A DNA stretch of 64,000 bases from Psychromonas sp. SA13A (lineage in GTDB: Bacteria > Pseudomonadota > Gammaproteobacteria > Enterobacterales > Psychromonadaceae), in assembly GCF_011378715.1 (NCBI RefSeq), contig NZ_WTKU01000005.1, positions 1 through 64,000 on the forward strand. Reading direction: 5' to 3'. Both the position numbers and the translations under genes were made by a program. Below, piece by piece: positions 13,325-64,000 of the stretch; positions within the stretch are counted from its first letter, which is position 1; every line of letters starts with the position of its first letter. The notes beneath the pieces were generated by a model. The model did not search any database and was not told where the DNA came from. It worked only from the letters and a program-made list of their open reading frames with translations.

Positions 13325-16300
13325 ATGTCTAACTTTTTTATTCACAGACCTATTTTTGCTTGGGTGCTTGCCATTGTTGTTATGATGGCAGGTATAGCTT
13401 CTATTTTGACATTACCTGTAGCGCAGTACCCTACTATTGCACCACCAGCAATTTCAATTTCGGCAACCTACACGGGTGCGTCAGCTAAAACCATTGAAGA
13501 TACTGTGACCCAGGTTATTGAACAAAGCATGACAGGATTAGATAACCTGCTTTACATGTCGTCAACCAGTGATTCCTCTGGTAGCGCAAAAATAACATTA
13601 ACTTTTAGTGCCGATACCGACCCCGATACTGCACAGGTACAGGTATCAAATAGCTTACAAAAAGTCAGCAGTCGCTTACCTGCTGCAGTACAAAATGCAG
13701 GTACATCTGTCACTAAGAGTACGTCTGGTTTTATCTCCGTAACCACCTTATATTCTGAAGATGGTTCGATGAGTGCAGGAGACATTCAAGATTATGCAAA
13801 CTCTAATATTAAAGACATTATTAGCCGTGTAAATGGTGTCGGTAGTGTGACTATTTTTGGTCCATCTTACGCCATGCGAATTTGGTTAGATCCAGCTAAA
13901 TTAAATAGTTATAACTTAACACCGGTAGATATTTCTACTGCCGTATCAGCACAAAATAGCCAAGTCACAGTAGGACAATTAGGCGGCACACCTTCAACAG
14001 AGTCACAATTAATCAATGCCACTATCACAGCACAAAGTTTATTAACAACGGTAGATGAATTTAAAAACATTTATCTTAAAGTTAATTCAGATGGCTCGCA
14101 GGTCCGACTTCAAGATGTTGCGCGTGTTGAACTAGCAAGCGAAAGCTCAAGTGTGATCCCTACTTTTAATGGCTACGCAACATCAGGTATTGCAATAACA
14201 CTTGCTTCAGGTGCAAATTCATTAGATACGCAAGCAGGGGTAGATGCAAAATTAGCACAATTATCTGAGTCATTTCCTACTGGTTTAGAGATAGCGAAAG
14301 CAGTTGATACCAATGCATTTATTCGAATATCTATTAGTGAAGTAGTCACAACATTAATAGAAGCAATCGTATTAGTATTTTTAGTTATGCTGTTATTTCT
14401 ACAAAATTTCCGAGCAACATTAATTCCAACCATTGCGGTACCTGTTGTATTACTGGGTACGTTTGCAATCATGTCGGTATTGGGCTTCTCTATCAACACC
14501 TTAACCATGTTTGGGTTGGTGTTAGCCATTGGTTTGTTGGTTGATGATGCGATTGTTGTTGTCGAAAATGTCGAACGAATAATGCATGAAGAGAAACTAT
14601 CACCATTTGAAGCAACCAAAAAATCAATGGGACAAATTACCAGCGCATTAGTCGGTATTACCATGGTATTAATGGTGGTATTTATTCCAATGGCCTTCAT
14701 GTCTGGCTCTACGGGTATTATCTATAAACAATTCTCTCTGACTATTGTATCTGCAATGGGATTATCAGTATTAGTGGCTTTAGTATTAACACCGGTACTG
14801 TGTGCGACGTTATTAAAACCGGTTGATAAAGAAAGAAACCTTAAAGTATTCGAAATATTTAACCGTTTATTTGACAAATTATTAGGAAAATATAACACCT
14901 CTATTAAACACTTATTATTGCGTCCGATTCGTTTTTCTTTAATTTATATCCTATTGTTCGGCGGTACTGTTTACTTATATAACTCATTACCAAGTTCTTT
15001 TTTACCTAATGAAGACCAAGGTTCATTTATGGTCATGGTATCAACACCAACGGGGACAACTCTGAAAGAAACCAATGTAGTAATGGATGAAGTAAAAAGC
15101 TACTTTGAAGAAAATGAGCCAGATCTAGTGACTTCTGTTTTTACCGTTGCAGGATTTAACTTCTCTGGAACGGGCCAAAATGCCGGCATGGCATTTATTG
15201 GTTTAAAAGACTGGGCAGAAAGAACTGAACCAGGTACCGATGCGAACGCGATTATTGCACGTACTATGAAGCATTTTTCAGGTTATAAAAAAGCATCTGT
15301 ATTTGCTTTTAGTAGCCCTCCTATTCGTGAATTAGGGCAAGCAACTGGTTTTGACTTTTATCTGCAAGATGTGGGTAGTATTGGTCATGAAAAACTCATT
15401 GAGCTACGTAACCAATTATTAGAAAAAATAGCACAAAGTCCATTGATACAAAATGCAAGACCAAATGGTTTGGAAGATACGGCACAATTTTACCTCGATA
15501 TTGACTATGAAAAAGCCAAGGTATTAGGTCTCGATATTGATGATATTAATAACTCGCTCTCTATTGCATGGGGTTCTTCTTATGTGAATGACTTCATAGA
15601 CCGAGGTCGATCTAAAAAGGTTTATATTCAGGCTGATGCTGAATATCGTATGACACCAGAAGACATGAACCTTTGGTTTATACGTAATGATAAAGGTGAA
15701 ATGGTACCATTATCAGCTTTTAGTTCCTCACATTGGGGAACAGGCTCCCCACAGTTATCACGTTTTAATGGTAACTCTGCAGTCGAAATATTAGGTGAAG
15801 CAGCACCGGGGTATAGTACCGGTGATGCAATGGCTGAAGTTGATAAAATAGCAGCAGAGCTTTCTAGTGATGTACAAGTTAGTTGGACTGGTATGTCATA
15901 TCAAGAGTTAGAAGCAGGTAACCAAGCACCTATTTTGTATGGCATTTCGCTATTGATGGTATTCCTTTGTTTAGCAGCGCTTTATGAAAGTTGGAGCATT
16001 CCAATCGCGATCATTTTAGTTGTACCGTTAGGTATTTTGGGCGCGTTAGCAGCTGTTATGATACGAGGGCTTGAAAACGATGTTTATTTCCAAGTAGGCG
16101 TATTGACCACCATTGGATTAACGGCTAAAAATGCCATTTTGATTGTCGAGTTTGCCAAAGAGTTATATGGAAAAGGAATGAACTTAATTGATGCTACAGT
16201 CAAAGCCTGTGAAATGCGTTTACGTCCGATCATTATGACATCATTAGCATTTGGTTTAGGTGTTTTACCCTTAGTGATCAGTACCGGAGCAGGCGCGAAT

Positions 16301-16435
16301 GCGCGTAATGCCATTGGTACATCAGTGCTTGGTGGTATGATTGCAGCAACCTGCTTAGTGATTTATTTTGCACCTTTATTCTTTGTTTTAATTCTGAATA
16401 TGGTGAAAAAGACGCGCTCGATCCTAACAAAATAA
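13325..16435 (+). CDS. RND multidrug efflux pump (AcrB/MexB family)
   Basis: A 1036-residue inner-membrane proton-driven exporter of the HAE1 family. It starts [20 protein letters not shown]; this ATG (13325) is chosen because the open frame upstream overlaps the adaptor gene and the family always begins with this FIxRPIFAWV motif. Proton-relay residues are in place: [16 protein letters not shown] (two Asp in TM4) and [15 protein letters not shown] (Lys in TM10). Porter-domain motifs such as [14 protein letters not shown] and the docking-domain GxQNxG-like [10 protein letters not shown] are present. Twelve membrane segments are expected. Substrates probably include dyes, detergents and drugs, but cannot be read from sequence. 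Confidence 0.95.
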
Positions 16436-16456
16436 CAATAGCATGATATAAGCATT

Positions 16457-16497
16457 AAAAAAGGCTAATTCACTTATCGTGAGTTAGCCTTTTTATT
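16457..16497. terminator. Intrinsic terminator, shared by convergent genes
   Basis: A long stem (AAAAAGGCTAATTCAC pairing with GTGAGTTAGCCTTTTT, one wobble) with a 5-nt loop follows the RND pump stop by about 20 bp. A-runs and T-runs on both sides make it bidirectional, also serving the GST gene from the other side. Confidence 0.9.
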
Positions 16498-16596
16498 TTG
16501 AGCTGCGAGCCCGTAAGCAATGAAATTATAATCGAAGTTAAATGTTTACTTTGTCTGCCCCTTTATTTAACTGCTGATATAACGCCAATAAACCCG

Positions 16597-17208
16597 TTAA
16601 CTAATTGCACACATATTTTCCCAGTGTTCAGCTTGTTTAATCGCATTTTTTAATAAATCCCACTGTAAAAGACTTTGCTGATATTCTCCAGCTTTACCTG
16701 GCAATGTAATACCATAGCTATTAAGACGAAATGCTAAAATGGCATAAAATGCGTCGACTGCACCGGCAAGCTCAAACATATAAGGCAAGGTTGCACTTTC
16801 AAAAATAGCCTCCACACGGGCTAACTCTTGGTGAATTTGTTGATTCAGTATTGGCGGTGTTGTTGCTGGTGTTAGCATGAAAGGAAACTGTTCGCGTAGT
16901 AAGGTAAAACCCGAATGCATTTCTGCACATAAACTTCTAGCACAGGCTCGCTGTTTAACTCTGATAGGATACAGACCACCATGTGAATGTTCATTTAGGT
17001 GCTCAATAATTGCTAGCGAATCATTAATCACAATGTTGCCATCAATATAGGCAGGTACAAGTCCACTTGGCGAATGCTCTAAAATTTTTGCTTGGTGATC
17101 AGTACTGCTTAAATCAATCACTTGCTCAGACGCTTCTACTTTAATTAGCTGCAAACATATCCATACTCTTAGTGACCATGTTGAACCGGTACCTACAATC
17201 AATTTCAT
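16597..17208 (-). CDS. Glutathione S-transferase family protein
   Basis: A 203-residue cytosolic GST-like protein. The thioredoxin-fold domain (about 1-80) shows STWSLRVWICLQLIKV, the cis-Pro segment SGLVPAYIDGNIVINDSLAIIEHL (Ser/Asp pair contacting the glutathione gamma-glutamyl group), followed by an all-helical domain that is diverged. It may conjugate glutathione to electrophiles or isomerise maleylacetoacetate-like compounds, since the STWSLRVW start resembles those enzymes; the substrate is not determined. TGGAG lies upstream of the ATG. It is convergent with the RND operon and stands alone. Confidence 0.85.
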   Translation of the reverse strand: MKLIVGTGSTWSLRVWICLQLIKVEASEQVIDLSSTDHQAKILEHSPSGLVPAYIDGNIVINDSLAIIEHLNEHSHGGLYPIRVKQRACARSLCAEMHSGFTLLREQFPFMLTPATTPPILNQQIHQELARVEAIFESATLPYMFELAGAVDAFYAILAFRLNSYGITLPGKAGEYQQSLLQWDLLKNAIKQAEHWENMCAIS

Positions 17209-17381
17209 CTTATCGCTCCATTGTTATATTTTAATTATAAATTTACTCGTCTAATTCCATCAATAACGCTTTTGCTATTATTAATGATGTTGTTATTTAT
17301 GCTGTTGTTATTTATTGTGTCATTACATCGTTTCATTTTTATTAATGCGAGTACTAACGCTAATGCAATTGAATTAATAAA

Positions 17382-17705
17382 CTAAAGACTGCACAGCACA
17401 GCACAGGAGATAGTTAGGAATTCAATTTTAGTCAGGCACACATTAGCTTTACTAAATTCATGTTCACGTATTAACAGTGTCACTTCTTGCTTAGAAAGCT
17501 GACGTTCAGCATCAACGAGTTGCACGCGACTATTGTTAGTCTTATTGCTAAATTTAAGCAAATAACTTAGACCATTTGAGTCAACGACGTAATCATCATC
17601 ACTGACAATTAACTCTTCGCATTCAGCAATAAATTCAGACTCATCAGCTAAGTAAATAAGCTCATGCTCTCCTTCTAATTTTAATAAACACGGCCAACAA
17701 ATCAT
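17382..17705 (-). CDS. DUF4144-like small protein
   Basis: A 107-residue acidic protein beginning MICWPCLLKLEGEHELIYLADESEF, with SDDDYVVDSNGLSYLLKF and a C-terminal half LSKQEVTLLIREHEFSKANVCLTKIEF. This pattern agrees with my memory of DUF4144, a Vibrionaceae/Alteromonadales family without known function. No signal or membrane segment is present. A GAGG lies upstream of the ATG. The last residues (ISCAVLCSL) look less conserved. It precedes the GST gene in the same direction but with a 170-bp gap. Confidence 0.6.
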   Translation of the reverse strand: MICWPCLLKLEGEHELIYLADESEFIAECEELIVSDDDYVVDSNGLSYLLKFSNKTNNSRVQLVDAERQLSKQEVTLLIREHEFSKANVCLTKIEFLTISCAVLCSL

Positions 17706-58751: not shown

Positions 58752-58840
58752 TTGCTCCTTCTACTGGATTTGAACCAACGGCACACGCTATGATTTATAA
58801 ACAGGACAGTCCTTTGCTCTGCCAACTAAGCTAAAGAAGA
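58752..58840 (-). pseudogene. tRNA-Asn-like 89-nt variant, copy A
   Basis: It matches tRNA-Asn in the D-arm and T-arm, but the 5-nt TAATC of the anticodon arm is replaced by an 18-nt CCTGTTTATAAATCATAG. The acceptor stem has a mismatch and the 3' end is GCAA, not GCCA. Compared with the other variants it has the most substitutions, so it appears the oldest. Confidence 0.7.
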
Positions 58841-58907
58841 ATTAACTTTTTAAGTCACCAAGTTTAACAGCTTGTAGACTTGTTAAACTCGAAAGCTTAA
58901 CTAAATA

Positions 58908-58996
58908 TGGCTCCTCTTGCTGGGCTTGAACCAGCGACACACGCTATGCTTTATAAACAGGACAGTCCGTTACTCTGCCAACTGAGCTAAAGAGGA
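58908..58996 (-). pseudogene. tRNA-Asn-like 89-nt variant, copy B
   Basis: It has a perfect acceptor stem, encoded CCA and normal T-arm, but carries the insertion CCTGTTTATAAAGCATAG in place of TAATC. The D-stem has a G-T pair. The standard 7-nt anticodon loop cannot form. Confidence 0.75.
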
Positions 58997-59472: not shown

Positions 59473-59548
59473 TGGCTCCTCTTGCTGGGCTTGAACCAGC
59501 GACACACGGATTAACAGTCCGTTGCTCTACCAACTGAGCTAAAGAGGA
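59473..59548 (-). tRNA. tRNA-Asn (GUU)
   Basis: A 76-nt tRNA with encoded CCA, 7-bp acceptor stem (TCCTCTT/AAGAGGA), D-stem GCTC/GAGC, anticodon loop CTGTTAA giving GUU, and T-stem GCTGG/CCAGC with TTCAAGC loop. It is the fourth intact copy in the direction of transcription and lies right before the terminator. Confidence 0.97.
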
Positions 59549-59615
59549 ATTAACTTTTTAAGTCACCAGGTTTTACAACTTGTAGACTTGTTAAACTCGA
59601 AAGCTTAACTGAATG

Positions 59616-59691
59616 TGGCTCCTCTTGCTGGGCTTGAACCAGCGACACACGGATTAACAGTCCGTTGCTCTACCAACTGAGCTAAAGAGGA
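59616..59691 (-). tRNA. tRNA-Asn (GUU)
   Basis: Sequence identical to the neighbouring intact copies. It is separated from the downstream copy by a 67-bp spacer that is also found between variants A and B. Confidence 0.97.
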
Positions 59692-59750
59692 ATTGTAAAT
59701 TTTAAGTCCTTCGACTCGTTATGCTCGACGTAATCGAACTTAACTAAATG

Positions 59751-59826
59751 TGGCTCCTCTTGCTGGGCTTGAACCAGCGACACACGGATTAACAGTCCGT
59801 TGCTCTACCAACTGAGCTAAAGAGGA
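59751..59826 (-). tRNA. tRNA-Asn (GUU)
   Basis: Identical intact 76-nt copy with GUU anticodon and encoded CCA. The 59-bp spacer at its left recurs, nearly unchanged, at 59904-59962. Confidence 0.97.
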
Positions 59827-59857
59827 ATTGTAACTTTCTCACTGTAAAATATAAATA

Positions 59858-59903
59858 CGGATTAACAGTGTCTCTGTAGCTCTACTAACCGAACCAAAGA
59901 GGA
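59858..59903 (-). pseudogene. 5' half tRNA-Asn remnant 1
   Basis: On the minus strand it begins TCCTCTTTGGTTCGGTTAG and keeps the D-arm and anticodon loop (CTGTTAATCC) but stops there; variable region and T-arm are gone and the stems are no longer paired. Confidence 0.75.
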
Positions 59904-59962
59904 ATTGTAAATTTTAAGTCCTTGGACTCGTTATGCTCGACGTAATCGAACTTAACTAAATG

Positions 59963-60038
59963 TGGCTCCTCTTGCTGGGCTTGAACCAGCGACACACGGA
60001 TTAACAGTCCGTTGCTCTACCAACTGAGCTAAAGAGGA
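59963..60038 (-). tRNA. tRNA-Asn (GUU)
   Basis: First intact copy met by RNA polymerase from the promoter at 60285-60313. Identical to the three other copies, which indicates recent duplication or gene conversion. Confidence 0.97.
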
Positions 60039-60409: not shown

Positions 60410-61168
60410 TTAAATATCCCACTTAATACTGCCAGCTAACTTCTCTTTCATTACTTCAAGCGGCTCATCTGGTTCACCAACGATAACAAGGCTTGCCTTA
60501 CCGATATGCTCTGAAATCCCTTTTAAGTGTTGATCTTTAAATGAAGAGGAAGGCATAAACCCAGCATCTTCAGGAACCACAAAAACAGTAACGCGTCCTT
60601 TTTCACCTTTTAATATCATATGTAAAGCTGAAGTCCCTTCAAAACTACAATAGTTAACAAATAATACTTCACCAAAATTATCCATCGCTTTAGCACCGTA
60701 TACTGCTAATTTGGCATTGACTGTTTGTAAGGTTGCATTTTCATTTGCTTTTGCAGTTAAAAAATACTCTTGTTTGACATGTTGTAACGCAACACTACCA
60801 ATATCTGAATGTGGCTTTACTAATGGCACCGTACTCACGGTATTAACAACCGCAGGCGAGTTCGTTAATTGTCCCATCATTGGCACACTAATACCGATCA
60901 CAAACGCGATTGATGCTGCGATAGCAATATGCCAACGAGCACTGACCGTTTTATCATGTTCTAGAGCAAAACTTTGTTCTAGTAAGATTTTATCAGTGAG
61001 ATCACTTGGTACATCAACTTGCAAACTATCTTTCAAGAATTTATCAAAGGCTTTTGATTCTTCAACCAAGTTTTTAGCACTATCAGAAGCTGCAGCTCGA
61101 GATAAAAATGCATCACTTTTATCGTTAGGTGTCGCTATCGCTGAGTGCCGGAATAAAATATCATCCAT
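60410..61168 (-). CDS. DUF3379 anti-sigma factor-like membrane protein
   Basis: A 252-residue DUF3379 protein with a cytosolic N-terminal part (about 1-78; SRAAASDSAKNLVEESKAFDKFLKDSLQVDVPSDLTDKILLEQS, described here by positions), one membrane helix (about 80-100, HIAIAASIAFVIGISVPM) and a periplasmic domain (about 100-252). The layout is that of anti-sigma factors, and it starts within the sigma gene, overlapping by 8 bp, with GGAG six bases before the ATG. It should hold the ECF sigma factor inactive until a periplasmic signal arrives. The periplasmic part has a single Cys (VNYCSFEG) that could sense metal or redox. The divergent bufferin operon is the likely regulon. Confidence 0.85.
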   Translation of the reverse strand: MDDILFRHSAIATPNDKSDAFLSRAAASDSAKNLVEESKAFDKFLKDSLQVDVPSDLTDKILLEQSFALEHDKTVSARWHIAIAASIAFVIGISVPMMGQLTNSPAVVNTVSTVPLVKPHSDIGSVALQHVKQEYFLTAKANENATLQTVNAKLAVYGAKAMDNFGEVLFVNYCSFEGTSALHMILKGEKGRVTVFVVPEDAGFMPSSSFKDQHLKGISEHIGKASLVIVGEPDEPLEVMKEKLAGSIKWDI

Positions 61169-61724
61169 GCGCTTCTCCGTTATTATTAATTTCTACTTTT
61201 AGGTTGGTTTTGAGCAAGTTTTTTGCTCTAAATAACCGTGTTAGGACAGTATTTTTATTTAAGTCCAATTGAATAGCTATTTCTTCAGCGGTAAAACCAG
61301 CTATCAACTGTAATAGTAATGGTTCTTTATAGTCTGATGGCAAAGCTGCAATTTTTTGCTGAATTAACTCTTTATCATAGGGACTACTATTTTCTTCTGC
61401 TGCTATTTCATAATCATCAATATCCACTAAAGCCAGTTGTTTTCGCTCAAAACGTCTTGCATTTTCTCGTCTTAAAATCGTAAACAACCACGCTTTAGCT
61501 GATTTATCATCTAATAAGCTATCTATACTTTTCCATGCTCGCAGGCAAGTCTCTTGCACTAGATCTTGAGCAACCTCAGGATCTCGGCAAATCCAAAATG
61601 CATAACGGTACAAATCTGCACTATATACATTCACTAATGATTCATATCTTTTTTGTTTTCTGTCCATATCCTTATAGACCGTCGACGATGAACTTTTATT
61701 TCGTTTTGATGTAAAAAAATTCAT
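61161..61724 (-). CDS. ECF-type RNA polymerase sigma factor
   Basis: A 187-residue group 4 sigma factor. Region 2 (about 28-95) shows VNVYSADLYRYAFWICRDPEVAQDLVQETCLRAWKSID (core A..LVQETFL.AW motif) and AWLFTILRRENARR; region 4 (about 135-180) shows LPSDYKEPLLLQLIAGFTAEEIAIQLDLNKNTVLTRLFRAKNLL. Together with the overlapping DUF3379 gene it forms a sigma/anti-sigma unit, divergent from bufA. AAGGA is six bases before the ATG. Candidate target promoters lie in the divergent region. The N-terminal 18 residues are poorly conserved, but the start is well supported. Confidence 0.93.
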   Translation of the reverse strand: MNFFTSKRNKSSSSTVYKDMDRKQKRYESLVNVYSADLYRYAFWICRDPEVAQDLVQETCLRAWKSIDSLLDDKSAKAWLFTILRRENARRFERKQLALVDIDDYEIAAEENSSPYDKELIQQKIAALPSDYKEPLLLQLIAGFTAEEIAIQLDLNKNTVLTRLFRAKNLLKTNLKVEINNNGEAHG

Positions 61725-61764
61725 TTGTTTCCTTAATTACTGATTTAGTCCTACACTCTTTAAC

Positions 61765-61782
61765 TTTATGCTTGTGCATAAA
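61765..61782. promoter_or_regulatory. 7-bp inverted repeat near the sigma gene
   Basis: TTTATGC-TTGT-GCATAAA lies 41-58 bp upstream of the sigma-factor start. It may be an operator; no regulator can be named. Confidence 0.35.
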
Positions 61783-61887
61783 ACTATCGACGACATAGCT
61801 AACATTGAATGTTTATAAATTAATTTTATTATTTTTGAAATTTTTTTTACTTAAAGTCGGTATCTATTATTGGACACATCATTGAAT

Positions 61888-61900
61888 CACGCAATGCGTG
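61888..61900. promoter_or_regulatory. 5-bp inverted repeat CACGC-AAT-GCGTG before bufA
   Basis: A small perfect dyad 32-45 bp upstream of the bufA start codon, in the untranslated leader or promoter region. It could be an operator or leader hairpin. Confidence 0.35.
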
Positions 61901-61932
61901 CATTTTTACATTAAATATAAAGGATCTACATT

Positions 61933-62193
61933 ATGAAAAAATCAAATATAGCATTGGCAGCAACAGTTTCTTCTATTCTAGCTATCGGTACGCTAGTTTC
62001 TTCTCCAGCGATGGCGGCAGGTAAAGAAAAGTGCTATGGCGTTGCTGCAGCGGGTCAAAATGACTGTGCAACTAAATCAAGCTCTTGTGCAGGCACATCT
62101 AAAGTAGATAACCAAGGCGATGCGTTCATCGCAGTGCCAAAAGGTTTATGTGATAAATTATCAGGTGGTAGCTTAAAACCAATTGAAGGTTAA
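61933..62193 (+). CDS. bufA1: BufA1-type bufferin precursor (DUF2282)
   Basis: An 86-residue secreted peptide precursor. The signal peptide ends at SSPAMA (residue 28), leaving a mature part of 58 residues with four cysteines: Cys34 (KEKCYGVA), Cys45 (QNDCAT), Cys52 (SSSCAG) and Cys73 (KGLCDKL). This spacing and the flanking [30 protein letters not shown] and the GGSLKP end are those of DUF2282 bufferins, copper-buffering RiPPs in which MNIO enzymes turn Cys into thiooxazole groups. By the published model, the two inner cysteines would be modified and the outer pair disulfide-bonded. AAAGGAT precedes the ATG. A terminator hairpin separates it from bufB. Confidence 0.9.
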
Positions 62194-62274
62194 TAATAGC
62201 ACTTCATCAAGTTAAACCAGTCATTTCAGCTAATTTTGATTGTTAACTTTATTTTTTGACAATAAAAAGCTGCC

Positions 62275-62316
62275 ATTAATACTACTCTGAAAGGAAGTGA
62301 GTAGTATTAATTTTTT
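62275..62316 (+). terminator. Intercistronic terminator/attenuator between bufA and bufB
   Basis: Perfect 13-bp arms ATTAATACTACTC and GAGTAGTATTAAT flank an 11-nt loop, followed by TTTTTT. It sits between the bufA stop (62193) and the bufB ribosome site (AAGGG). Its position would limit transcription of the enzyme genes relative to the precursor. Confidence 0.85.
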
Positions 62317-62328
62317 ACAAGGGTTTAT

Positions 62329-63168
62329 GTGAATAATATGAGTATAACCAATGTAGGCATAGGTTTAAGAGCTGAACACTATCAAGAGATACATCAAACT
62401 TCACCTGCCATAGACTTTTTAGAGGTCCATAGCGAAAACTACTTTGATAAAAATTCGCTCAATTACTTTTATTTACAACAATTAAGTGAACAATATCCAC
62501 TTAGTTTTCATGGAATCGGACTTTCCTTAGGTAGTGCAGAGGCTGTTTCTAAAAATCATTTAAAACAATTAAAAACACTAGTAGCAGAATTTAATCCTTT
62601 TTTAATATCAGACCACTTAAGTTGGAGTTCATGGCAAGGGACCTATTTTAATGATCTACTGCCAGTCCCTTACACAGAAGAAGCGCTATCTCGTTTTATT
62701 ACCAATATCAATCAGGTTCAAGATCATTTACAAACACAAATAATCGTAGAAAACCCATCGTCATATTTAGAGTATAAAAATACTGATTATGATGAAGCGA
62801 CTTTTCTTAATGAAATTAGTGAACGTACAGGTTGTGGACTGTTACTTGATATCAATAATGTTTACGTCAGTGCAACCAATAATAATTTTTCAGCACAACA
62901 GTACTTAGATGAAATTAACTTTAATAAAGTACAAGAAATCCACCTTGCAGGGCATATACGTAAACAATTTGCAGAAGGTGAGATATTAATTGATACGCAC
63001 AGCAAATTAATCAGTGATCCAGTGTGGCAGCTGTACTCTGCAAATATTAATAAAATCAAAAATGCAGTCACTTTAATTGAATGGGATGCTGAATTACCAG
63101 CCCTTTCTGTACTATTAGGTGAAAGAGATAAAGCCAAACAATTCTTAAGAGAGGTTACTCATGATTAA
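62329..63168 (+). CDS. bufB: MNIO-family bufferin maturase (DUF692)
   Basis: A 279-residue TIM-barrel protein of the multinuclear non-heme iron oxidase (MNIO) family, which modifies Cys residues in small peptides. Family motifs in order: GLRAEHYQE, FLEVHSENYFD (Glu/His), LSFHGIGLSLGS, LISDHLSWSS (Asp-His), IIVENPSSYLEY, LLLDINNVYVSATN (Asp-Asn), VQEIHLAGHI and LIDTHSKLI (Asp-His). All expected iron ligands seem present. The start is GTG at 62329 with AAGGG five bases upstream; the later ATG at 62338 has a poorer spacing. It overlaps bufC by 8 bp, so the two are translationally coupled. The substrate is most likely BufA1. Confidence 0.92.
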   Translation: MNNMSITNVGIGLRAEHYQEIHQTSPAIDFLEVHSENYFDKNSLNYFYLQQLSEQYPLSFHGIGLSLGSAEAVSKNHLKQLKTLVAEFNPFLISDHLSWSSWQGTYFNDLLPVPYTEEALSRFITNINQVQDHLQTQIIVENPSSYLEYKNTDYDEATFLNEISERTGCGLLLDINNVYVSATNNNFSAQQYLDEINFNKVQEIHLAGHIRKQFAEGEILIDTHSKLISDPVWQLYSANINKIKNAVTLIEWDAELPALSVLLGERDKAKQFLREVTHD

Positions 63169-63964
63169 ACCTCCTAATCAAGACAACCTTGCCCCCTCTT
63201 CTTTAAACCTTAAACAGTTACAACAACAATTTAGTCAAAGTCTGTTGTATCAAGAATCTGATATCGCGTTGCAACTTAAAGAAAAACAAGGTTTTACATC
63301 TCAACAATTACTACAAATTCACCGCAACAATTTTGTGATGAGTGTAACCGAAAGTTTAAAAAGTACGTTCAAGTATACCGAGCAATTAGTTGGCGCAGAT
63401 TTTTTTGACAGTGTCGCGAGACAATTTATTTTACGGCAACCACCGGCGATTAATAACATCATTGTTTACGGCGAACAATTTCCATTTTACTTATCAAATT
63501 TAACACAGCTAGCAGACATGCCTTACGTCGCAGAAATGGCAAAATTTGAATGGTTATATGAGCAATGCCAAAAAACAGTACAACAACCGATTGAGTTTGA
63601 TCTGCAATCACTACAACAAGTTAATCCCGATGACTTTGAATACATACAATTTTCAATTTCATCGCATTGCCTAATTTTTGAGAGTTCACAAAATATAAAC
63701 TTGTTGTATCAAATGCTAATTAATAACAATGTTGAAGCAACGAATTTAGATCAACCGTGTTACTTATTATTAGAAAAAGAACCTAACTTTACTATAAAAG
63801 TAACTGAGCTATCCAAGCAGCAATGGCAATTAATACAGCAACTACAACAGAAAATGCTACTTGGGGCATTGCAGCCAAGTATTTTACAGGAACAATTAAG
63901 TTATTTAATAACAACCAATTTAATTGGTGATTTTAGTATCGTTAAAGTTAAGGAGGACCAATGA
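63161..63964 (+). CDS. bufC: BufC/HvfC-type partner (DUF2063)
   Basis: A 267-residue protein with an N-terminal DUF2063 domain: LKQLQQQFSQSLL, QLLQIHRNNFVMSVTESLKSTFKYTEQLVGADFFDSVARQFI (key motif IHRNNF..S....L...F......VG..FF...AR.F) and MPYVAEMAKFEWLYEQC. The Domain is named a putative DNA-binding domain but acts as the MNIO partner, thought to present the precursor peptide to the enzyme. The C-terminal half (about 150-267) is diverged. It overlaps bufB by 8 bp at the start and the next gene by 4 bp (ATGA) at the end. Confidence 0.88.
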   Translation: MIKPPNQDNLAPSSLNLKQLQQQFSQSLLYQESDIALQLKEKQGFTSQQLLQIHRNNFVMSVTESLKSTFKYTEQLVGADFFDSVARQFILRQPPAINNIIVYGEQFPFYLSNLTQLADMPYVAEMAKFEWLYEQCQKTVQQPIEFDLQSLQQVNPDDFEYIQFSISSHCLIFESSQNINLLYQMLINNNVEATNLDQPCYLLLEKEPNFTIKVTELSKQQWQLIQQLQQKMLLGALQPSILQEQLSYLITTNLIGDFSIVKVKEDQ

Positions 63965-64000
63965 ATACATTAATTAATTATTATCAGCAAAGCGTGCAAG
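63961..64000 (+). CDS. Start of a probable DoxX-family gene, cut by window edge
   Basis: ATG at 63961 overlaps the bufC stop by four bases and AAGGAGG is about seven bases before it. Only MNTLINYYQQSVQ is visible. DoxX-like membrane proteins commonly follow bufABC and begin like this, so the assignment rests mainly on context. Confidence 0.55.
   Translation, partial: MNTLINYYQQSVQ

Follow-up and report, generated by a model that had tools for sequence, protein, structure and literature searches.

The question raised by the locus at the end of the window (the whole stretch of DNA analysed here, 64,000 nucleotides of contig NZ_WTKU01000005.1, from the 4.57-Mb genome of Psychromonas sp. SA13A) is which regulator controls the bufferin operon that it carries, and in response to which signal. 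In the window, bufABC-doxX lies divergently from two overlapping genes that encode an extracytoplasmic function (ECF) sigma factor (gene sig) and a DUF3379 protein, its putative membrane anti-sigma factor, and an earlier note on this DNA had proposed this pair as the likely switch of the operon. Judging from a motif common to the DNA of sig, bufA and msrP, we consider it likely that the DUF3379/ECF pair is a periplasmic stress switch that drives its own expression, that of bufABC-doxX and that of msrPQ. The parts of this reading differ in strength: the shared motif with its three predicted targets has good support and the assignment of the regulator is well supported, msrP probably belongs to the regulon, and support is weak for the nature of the signal, for the residues that would sense it and for the way in which the sigma factor would be released.

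The motif upstream of bufA

A two-part motif of the approximate form GAAA[T/G]-N16-NGGT was first recognised upstream of the Psychromonas bufA gene. TGAAAT-N16-CGGT precedes bufA in 13 of the 14 Psychromonas genomes with such a bufA, and the longer pattern TGAAATTT..............CGGT.T.TAT...TG was found there with uniform spacing in 13 genomes of the genus. The distance from the motif to the bufA start was 97-115 nt in 11 Psychromonas genomes, 188 nt in G016 and 583 nt in G013. The 14th bufA, that of G017, lacks the motif, and this genome has neither the sigma factor nor DUF3379. The motif was present at bufA in G001, G005 and G022 although the sigma/DUF3379 pair sits elsewhere in these genomes, and in G009, G019 and G020 a bufA-type motif is retained, pointing away from the sigma gene, with no bufferin gene behind it (L093, L096, L097). 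In the genome to which the window belongs, TGAAAT-N16-CGGTNTNTA gave one exact match, at bufA. When one mismatch was allowed, there were 17 matches in total, including one at the sigma gene's 5′ end and another immediately ahead of msrP, and the reversed control gave 14, so that most of these matches are attributed to chance; a tighter pattern gave 5 matches, three of them at sig, bufA and msrP, against 1 in the control.

For the wider comparison we used an order sample of 99 genomes, a class sample of 369 genomes and a set of 80 named loci, the order sample and the named loci overlapping in genomes. Alternative spacings, the reversed pattern and sigma-negative genomes served as controls against overfitting of the motif. 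In the order sample, with a single bufA taken per genome (49 genomes), [TCG]GAAA[TG]-N16-[CA]GGT was found upstream of bufA in 22/40 sigma-positive genomes and in 1/9 sigma-negative ones. A spacing of 15 nt was found in 5/40, four of these from one family, and every other spacing gave 0 or 1. In family f16 the halves of the bufA motif are separated by 15 nt, not 16 (L034, L035, L037, L038). In 27 genomes bufA shares 59% or more identity with that of the window, and 25 of these genomes have DUF3379. With a weight matrix, bufA reached a shuffle p of at most 0.05 in 12 genomes outside the genus, one of which (G079) lacks DUF3379. Outside the order, the motif precedes bufA in six of the nine genomes in which this gene lies directly beside DUF3379. 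Some Psychromonas genomes carry a different bufferin operon (L110, L111, L083, L091) with conserved upstream genes and, in G009 and G020, two tandem bufA copies; the weight matrix detected no motif at this operon.

The motif at the 5′ end of the sigma gene

The same kind of motif lies within the 5′ end of the sigma open reading frame (ORF). GAAA[TG]-N16-[CAT]GGTC was found at this place in 75 of the 80 named loci, other spacings giving 0 to 2, and in 47 of 54 order-sample loci, other spacings giving 0 or 1 (G039 is excluded from the sigma-gene tables). Its position is almost fixed, usually 57 nt before the Tyr/Phe codon of YEALV. Outside the order, G[TA]AA[TG]-N16-NGGTC was present at 23/42 sigma 5′ ends, often just before the start codon; the expression G[TA]AA[TG] was composed after the sites had been viewed, the previous expression having failed on several sites there. 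In this outside-order test, which covered sigma 5′ ends and bufA, other spacings gave 0 or 1 and null windows 37/4200. In the window a possible second sigma start, Met20 (ATG, 61667-61665), follows immediately after the embedded motif. The motif is likely to be an autoregulatory promoter whose transcript would have almost no leader; in the window, translation would then begin at Met20. The earlier note's proposal of the ECF/DUF3379 pair as the switch is strengthened by this common motif, which bufA shares with the sigma gene's 5′ end even where the two loci are apart.

The motif upstream of msrP

A strict motif search matched before the MsrP gene in G016, which prompted the test of msrP in the relatives. 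MsrP is encoded by 63 of the 99 order-sample genomes, and 62 of them were tested (in G057, MsrP is cut by a contig end). [TC]GAAA[TG]-N16-NGGTCT was found upstream of msrP in 25/46 sigma-positive and 2/16 sigma-negative genomes, and spacings of 10-15 and 17-22 gave 0 or 1. Outside the genus the figures were 13/28 and 0/12, respectively (Fisher p 0.003, uncorrected for relatedness). In the genome of the window msrP is followed by msrQ, and both MsrP and MsrQ were confirmed by NCBIfam.

Twenty regions with strict-pattern matches were fetched from the whole genomes. Within Psychromonas the matches were located before a YdjM-like gene (G007, G009, G019, G020), msrP (G016) and other genes, and four of the five regions fetched from other families had the match within an ORF. 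The strict motif lies 82-235 nt before the YdjM-like gene in the four Psychromonas genomes, and 69-80 nt before two other gene kinds (L184-L187, L188, L192, L194), the first 90 aa of which gave no Pfam match. The YdjM-like gene and these two gene kinds are possible further targets, the control being high, and because of this high reversed control we do not claim a wider regulon. No match to the Psychromonas bufA promoter pattern was found before the FadL, sodium-symporter and other genes that neighbour the pair in other genomes of the order.

Distribution of the gene pair and of its association with bufferins

The sigma factor is encoded by 19 of 24 Psychromonas genomes, and the same gene set was found together in nine of these 19, including the genome of the window; in two of the nine, about 0.9 kb separates bufA from the pair. 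In G002, G009, G019 and G020 the pair adjoins the genes for a 163-aa protein and an oxidase with no bufferin operon in between, and in G001, G005 and G022 the bufferin operon has this position, with the pair in another part of the genome. These varied layouts imply loss or relocation of the operon, of the pair or of both. In G022 (L087), bufB is split over two overlapping frames and the enzyme gene looks broken. The closest named DUF3379 protein is that of P. arctica, with 88% identity, in a search from which the genome's own records may have been left out.

DUF3379 scored over the cut-off in 55/99 genomes of the order sample and 50/369 of the class sample. Of the 55, 15 lack DUF2282, and in 31 it lies away from the pair; bufA was within 7 kb of the pair in none of the 36 non-Psychromonas DUF3379 genomes of the order sample, and it lies beside the pair in 6/80 named loci, all of them Psychromonas. 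The association pointed out in the earlier note recurs outside the order, where 46 of the 47 over-cut-off genomes were fetched (G292, with a borderline DUF3379, was left out): bufA lies directly beside DUF3379 in nine of the 46, a minority, and eight of these nine have the sigma factor. In seven of the nine bufA is divergent from the sigma gene, G407 has the co-directional order sig-asig-bufA-bufB-bufC-doxX, and in G381 no sigma gene was detected at that copy. Our first view that the adjacency was chance synteny was dropped upon this recurrence in the class sample and upon the motif.

The DUF3379 protein

The DUF3379 protein consists of N-terminal helices, which we take to resemble a class I anti-sigma domain, one hydrophobic segment at about residues 80-97 (judged by eye) and a periplasmic alpha/beta domain at about residues 121-252. 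The earlier note had remarked on a single Cys in the periplasmic part and suggested that it might sense metal or redox state. The protein indeed has exactly one Cys, C174, located after the hydrophobic segment, and in the alignments (of 52 and 43 proteins) C174 and H183 were invariant in 52/52 DUF3379 proteins and H130 was present in 96% (G087 yielded no protein for the alignment of 52, and G039 and G060 are not part of it). The idea of a C174 metal or redox sensor is improved by this invariance together with a nearby His, and stands better than the earlier note could know. In an AlphaFold2 model (mean predicted local distance difference test score 85.6, low at about residues 71-110) C174 is located on strand 168-176 and H183 on the consecutive strand 179-187, and the two side chains would lie on a shared face if these strands form a tight hairpin.

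RseB and MucB are stress sensors for sigma-E-type factors. The seven best Foldseek matches of the DUF3379 domain were RseB/MucB proteins (best E 3.5e-3, probability 0.99-1.00, template modelling (TM) score 0.25-0.29), so that in the model the periplasmic domain weakly resembles RseB. The absence of any match at E 0.001 and the TM score of 0.28 count against this likeness, and a search of the PDB by sequence gave no significant relative (best E 0.38). The fold match, weak as it is, recalls the RseA-RseB and MucA-MucB systems, with the difference that the DUF3379 anti-sigma factor contains the domain within its own chain.

Proposed mechanism and alternative readings

In the mechanism that we propose, the DUF3379 protein would tether the ECF sigma factor to the inner membrane. 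Release of the sigma factor would follow when a signal in the periplasm, the likeliest being excess copper or an oxidant (e.g., reactive chlorine species), acts on the RseB-like domain around Cys174/His183. The released sigma factor would transcribe its own gene pair from the promoter in its own 5′ end (probably as a message with almost no leader, translated from Met20), bufABC-doxX, so that a modified copper-binding peptide is made, and msrPQ, so that oxidised periplasmic methionines are repaired. We advance tentatively, and with somewhat less than even confidence, a more specific version in which DUF3379 is an anti-sigma factor with a built-in RseB-like sensor, whose invariant Cys and His, with the nearly invariant second His, would bring about release of the sigma factor by binding Cu(I) or by reacting with an oxidant; it would then add a third switch of independent origin to those of the NrsF and HrsE types for the programme of bufferin plus methionine repair.

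Several observations weigh against the regulatory reading as a whole. The looser expressions, the own-genome pattern included, were composed with the sites in view, and the Fisher values overstate the evidence because the genomes are related. Under the rules used, no motif was found at bufA in 18/40 sigma-positive genomes of the order sample and in 3/9 of the genomes outside the order, or at msrP in 21/46 sigma-positive genomes; in G124, msrP is about 1 kb from the sigma gene yet without a motif. G016 carries the motif at both bufA and msrP and no sigma factor or DUF3379 was detected in it, its contig starting 247 nt before bufA; it is one of the two sigma-negative genomes with the msrP motif, the other being G012 (51% complete). 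The strict pattern gave 59 matches in 37 of the 99 whole genomes, compared with 41 for the reversed control (31 versus 18 within the genus and 28 versus 23 elsewhere), so that a lone match says little. In G006, G008, G010, G013, G021 and G022 the motif at the sigma gene is degenerate although the bufA motif is kept, and in the f16 genomes the two halves of the sigma-gene motif flank a stretch that looks by eye like a Shine-Dalgarno sequence, so that a promoter fits poorly there.

Among the alternatives, we give close to an even chance to the same regulon answering oxidant damage (reactive chlorine, methionine oxidation) and not copper, the bufferin being one part of an oxidant response. The msrP motif is present in genomes without any DUF2282 (e.g., G002, G014, G018, G037, G053 and G080), a Brucella ECF16 sigma factor is reported to control an msr operon and to answer hypochlorous acid (HOCl) (PMC8315932), and Haemophilus RpoE2 is described as controlling msrAB and a DoxX cluster under HOCl stress (PMC7907618). 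On the other side, bufferins are reported to aid growth in copper stress (PMC12452194), the gig genes of Cupriavidus are described as copper-induced (PMC10304878), and the Cys/His pair would suit a metal equally. Of the metal-response circuit suggested in the earlier note, the bufferin operon stands as a predicted target but not as the sole likely one, since msrP bears the same motif and many DUF3379 genomes of the order sample lack DUF2282 or have it away from the pair (above); the findings accord with an oxidant response no less well than with a metal response.

It is improbable that the conserved stretch at the sigma 5′ end is a protein feature (R-K...V..DM) and not a promoter. The frame stays open through this stretch in many genomes, with an ATG available upstream; however, the Val codon within the motif is mostly GTC, preceded by G, whereas elsewhere in these genes GTC accounts for 72/396 (order-sample set) and 115/563 (named loci) of the Val codons, so that the constraint seems to act on the DNA. 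Furthermore, the motif is kept in G037 and in f16 genomes, where the encoded peptide differs, and its frequent location just before the start codon outside the order also argues for a promoter. That the motif is read by another ECF sigma factor, with the DUF3379 pair a chance neighbour, would agree with the limited adjacency of bufA and the pair in the order (9/19 and 0/36, above), with G016 and with the copy in G381 at which no sigma gene was detected, but we regard it as improbable given the motif at this sigma gene's own 5′ end, its rarity before msrP and bufA in sigma-less genomes, the recurrence of the bufA-DUF3379 adjacency outside the order, and NrsF, which scored over the cut-off in 0/99 order-sample genomes (with one weaker match).

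Gene content of the locus

The DUF3379, ECF sigma, DUF2282, MNIO, DUF2063 and DoxX genes were all found by Pfam and NCBIfam where the earlier note had placed them (Table 1), with the operon overlaps that it had listed: 8 bp between bufB and bufC and 4 bp between bufC and doxX. The sigma and DUF3379 genes likewise overlap by 8 bp. Between sig and bufA lie 208 bp of intergenic DNA. The bufferin reading of the operon was borne out as well, as of the Buf1 type, since the DUF2282 precursor has four conserved Cys (positions 34, 45, 52 and 73) and is encoded in an operon with an MNIO maturase, which exceeds the NCBIfam bufferin-maturase cut-off, and its DUF2063 partner; bufC itself scores under the NCBIfam HvfC cut-off. 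The N-terminus of BufA resembles a Sec signal peptide (judged by eye). The regulatory genes form a DUF3379-linked ECF pair, with a PF11859 protein gene overlapping that of a PRK12517 sigma factor, and the PRK12517 assignment was also confirmed in two relatives.

Table 1. Coordinates and supporting scores of the genes and predicted elements at the locus.
Feature	Position in the window	Strand	Evidence or remark
DUF3379 anti-sigma	60410..61168	-	Pfam PF11859, 229.6 bits (cut-off 33.2)
ECF sigma factor	61161..61724	-	NCBIfam subfamily PRK12517, 268.6 bits (cut-off 197)
Predicted autoregulatory ECF promoter in the 5′ end of the sigma ORF	61673..61703	-	CGAAAT-N16-CGGTCTATA; conserved across sigma loci
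Predicted bufA ECF promoter	61836..61866	+	TGAAAT-N16-CGGTATCTA; begins 97 nt 5′ of the bufA ATG
bufA, DUF2282 (Buf1-type) bufferin precursor, 86 aa	61933..62193	+	Pfam PF10048, 86.7 bits (cut-off 22.4)
Stem-loop between bufA and bufB (13-bp stem, 11-nt loop, then a T-run)	62275..62311	+	z -1.63; 12/200 shuffles fold equally well
bufB, MNIO (DUF692) bufferin maturase	62329..63168	+	Pfam, 341.9 bits; NCBIfam MNIO_BufB, 367.9 bits (cut-off 310)
bufC, DUF2063 partner of MNIO	63161..63964	+	Pfam PF09836, 65.3 bits (cut-off 27.2)
doxX (start), 147 aa	63961..64000	+	Pfam DoxX, 66.4 bits (cut-off 23.6)

The stem-loop between bufA and bufB is a possible partial terminator, weak by its energy, that would perhaps reduce the enzyme relative to the peptide; it is absent from the list of the terminator scan. 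Only the first 40 nt of doxX are inside the window, the remainder lying past its end (region L002, 9961-10404). Downstream of doxX are the genes for a 163-aa protein without a Pfam match and for a COX1-type oxidase subunit, and an oxidase cluster follows the bufferin operon (L002, 11266-17895), in which a long protein (15185-17611) resembles by eye a copper-transporting ATPase. On the other side of the locus there are four tandem tRNA-Asn genes (59473-60038 of the window, minus strand), and two odd tRNA-like matches (58754-58996) may be decayed copies.

Relation to known systems and significance

Bufferins have been grouped with other thiooxazole metallophores (PMC13097082). In Caulobacter, sigF/NrsF (ECF16) is reported to control two bufferin-type DUF2282-DUF692-DUF2063 operons (one with DoxX), YedY/MsrP and the sigF operon from the promoter GTAACC-N16-CGAA (PMC3511200), and that system is like ours in having an ECF sigma factor with a membrane anti-sigma factor, similar targets and a two-part promoter with a 16-nt spacing. 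Genes for a sigma factor and NrsF are described in Buf1 clusters (PMC12452194), and a Nitrobacter plasmid shows the same divergent layout, with DUF1109. The DUF3379 system is nevertheless not ECF16, because the sigma factor, the anti-sigma factor and the -10 element all differ. The sigma factor of the window gave no significant BLASTP match to the one beside NrsF on the Nitrobacter plasmid (E 0.33) and is above the PRK12517 cut-off, whereas two NrsF-linked sigma factors match PRK12512 best, below its cut-off. NrsF (DUF1109) is a six-helix protein, whereas DUF3379 is predicted to have a single membrane segment and bears a domain in the periplasm. The ECF16 promoter is (T/C)GTAAC-N16/17-CGAA, a motif present in the Pseudomonas plasmid L353, whereas the window motif has GGT at -10.

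The gigPABT operon of Cupriavidus metallidurans is described as copper-induced and divergent from rpoQ-rsqA, so that a bufferin operon there also faces sigma and anti-sigma genes; the control of gig by RpoQ is assumed there and stands unproven, and deletion of rpoQ raised gig expression (PMC10304878), which is a further point against our reading. A database record for RsqA was not found. Haemophilus RpoE2-HrsE and Neisseria SigE (ECF13) are described as sigma systems that control a periplasmic methionine-sulfoxide reductase together with a DoxX cluster, and HrsE is a 67-residue cytoplasmic anti-sigma factor, unlike DUF3379 (PMC7907618); the comparison with these systems is by description. On a Methylomagnum plasmid (L357) an MsrQ gene lies directly after bufABC-doxX, another link between bufferins and methionine repair.

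The earlier note had named an ECF sigma factor, and not a copper repressor, as the likely switch. ECF control of bufferins and the divergent layout were already published; what is new is sequence evidence that a DUF3379-type sigma factor, of another sigma group and with an unrelated anti-sigma factor, may do this job. No mention of DUF3379, PF11859 or PRK12517 was found in the open-licence literature searched, subscription papers lying outside that search. For the DUF3379 family, hitherto of unknown function, we offer a likely role, together with a promoter motif and a predicted regulon of small size. It appears that copper-binding peptides and methionine repair in the periplasm are placed under joint control with at least three types of anti-sigma factor, and this points to a shared physiological need.

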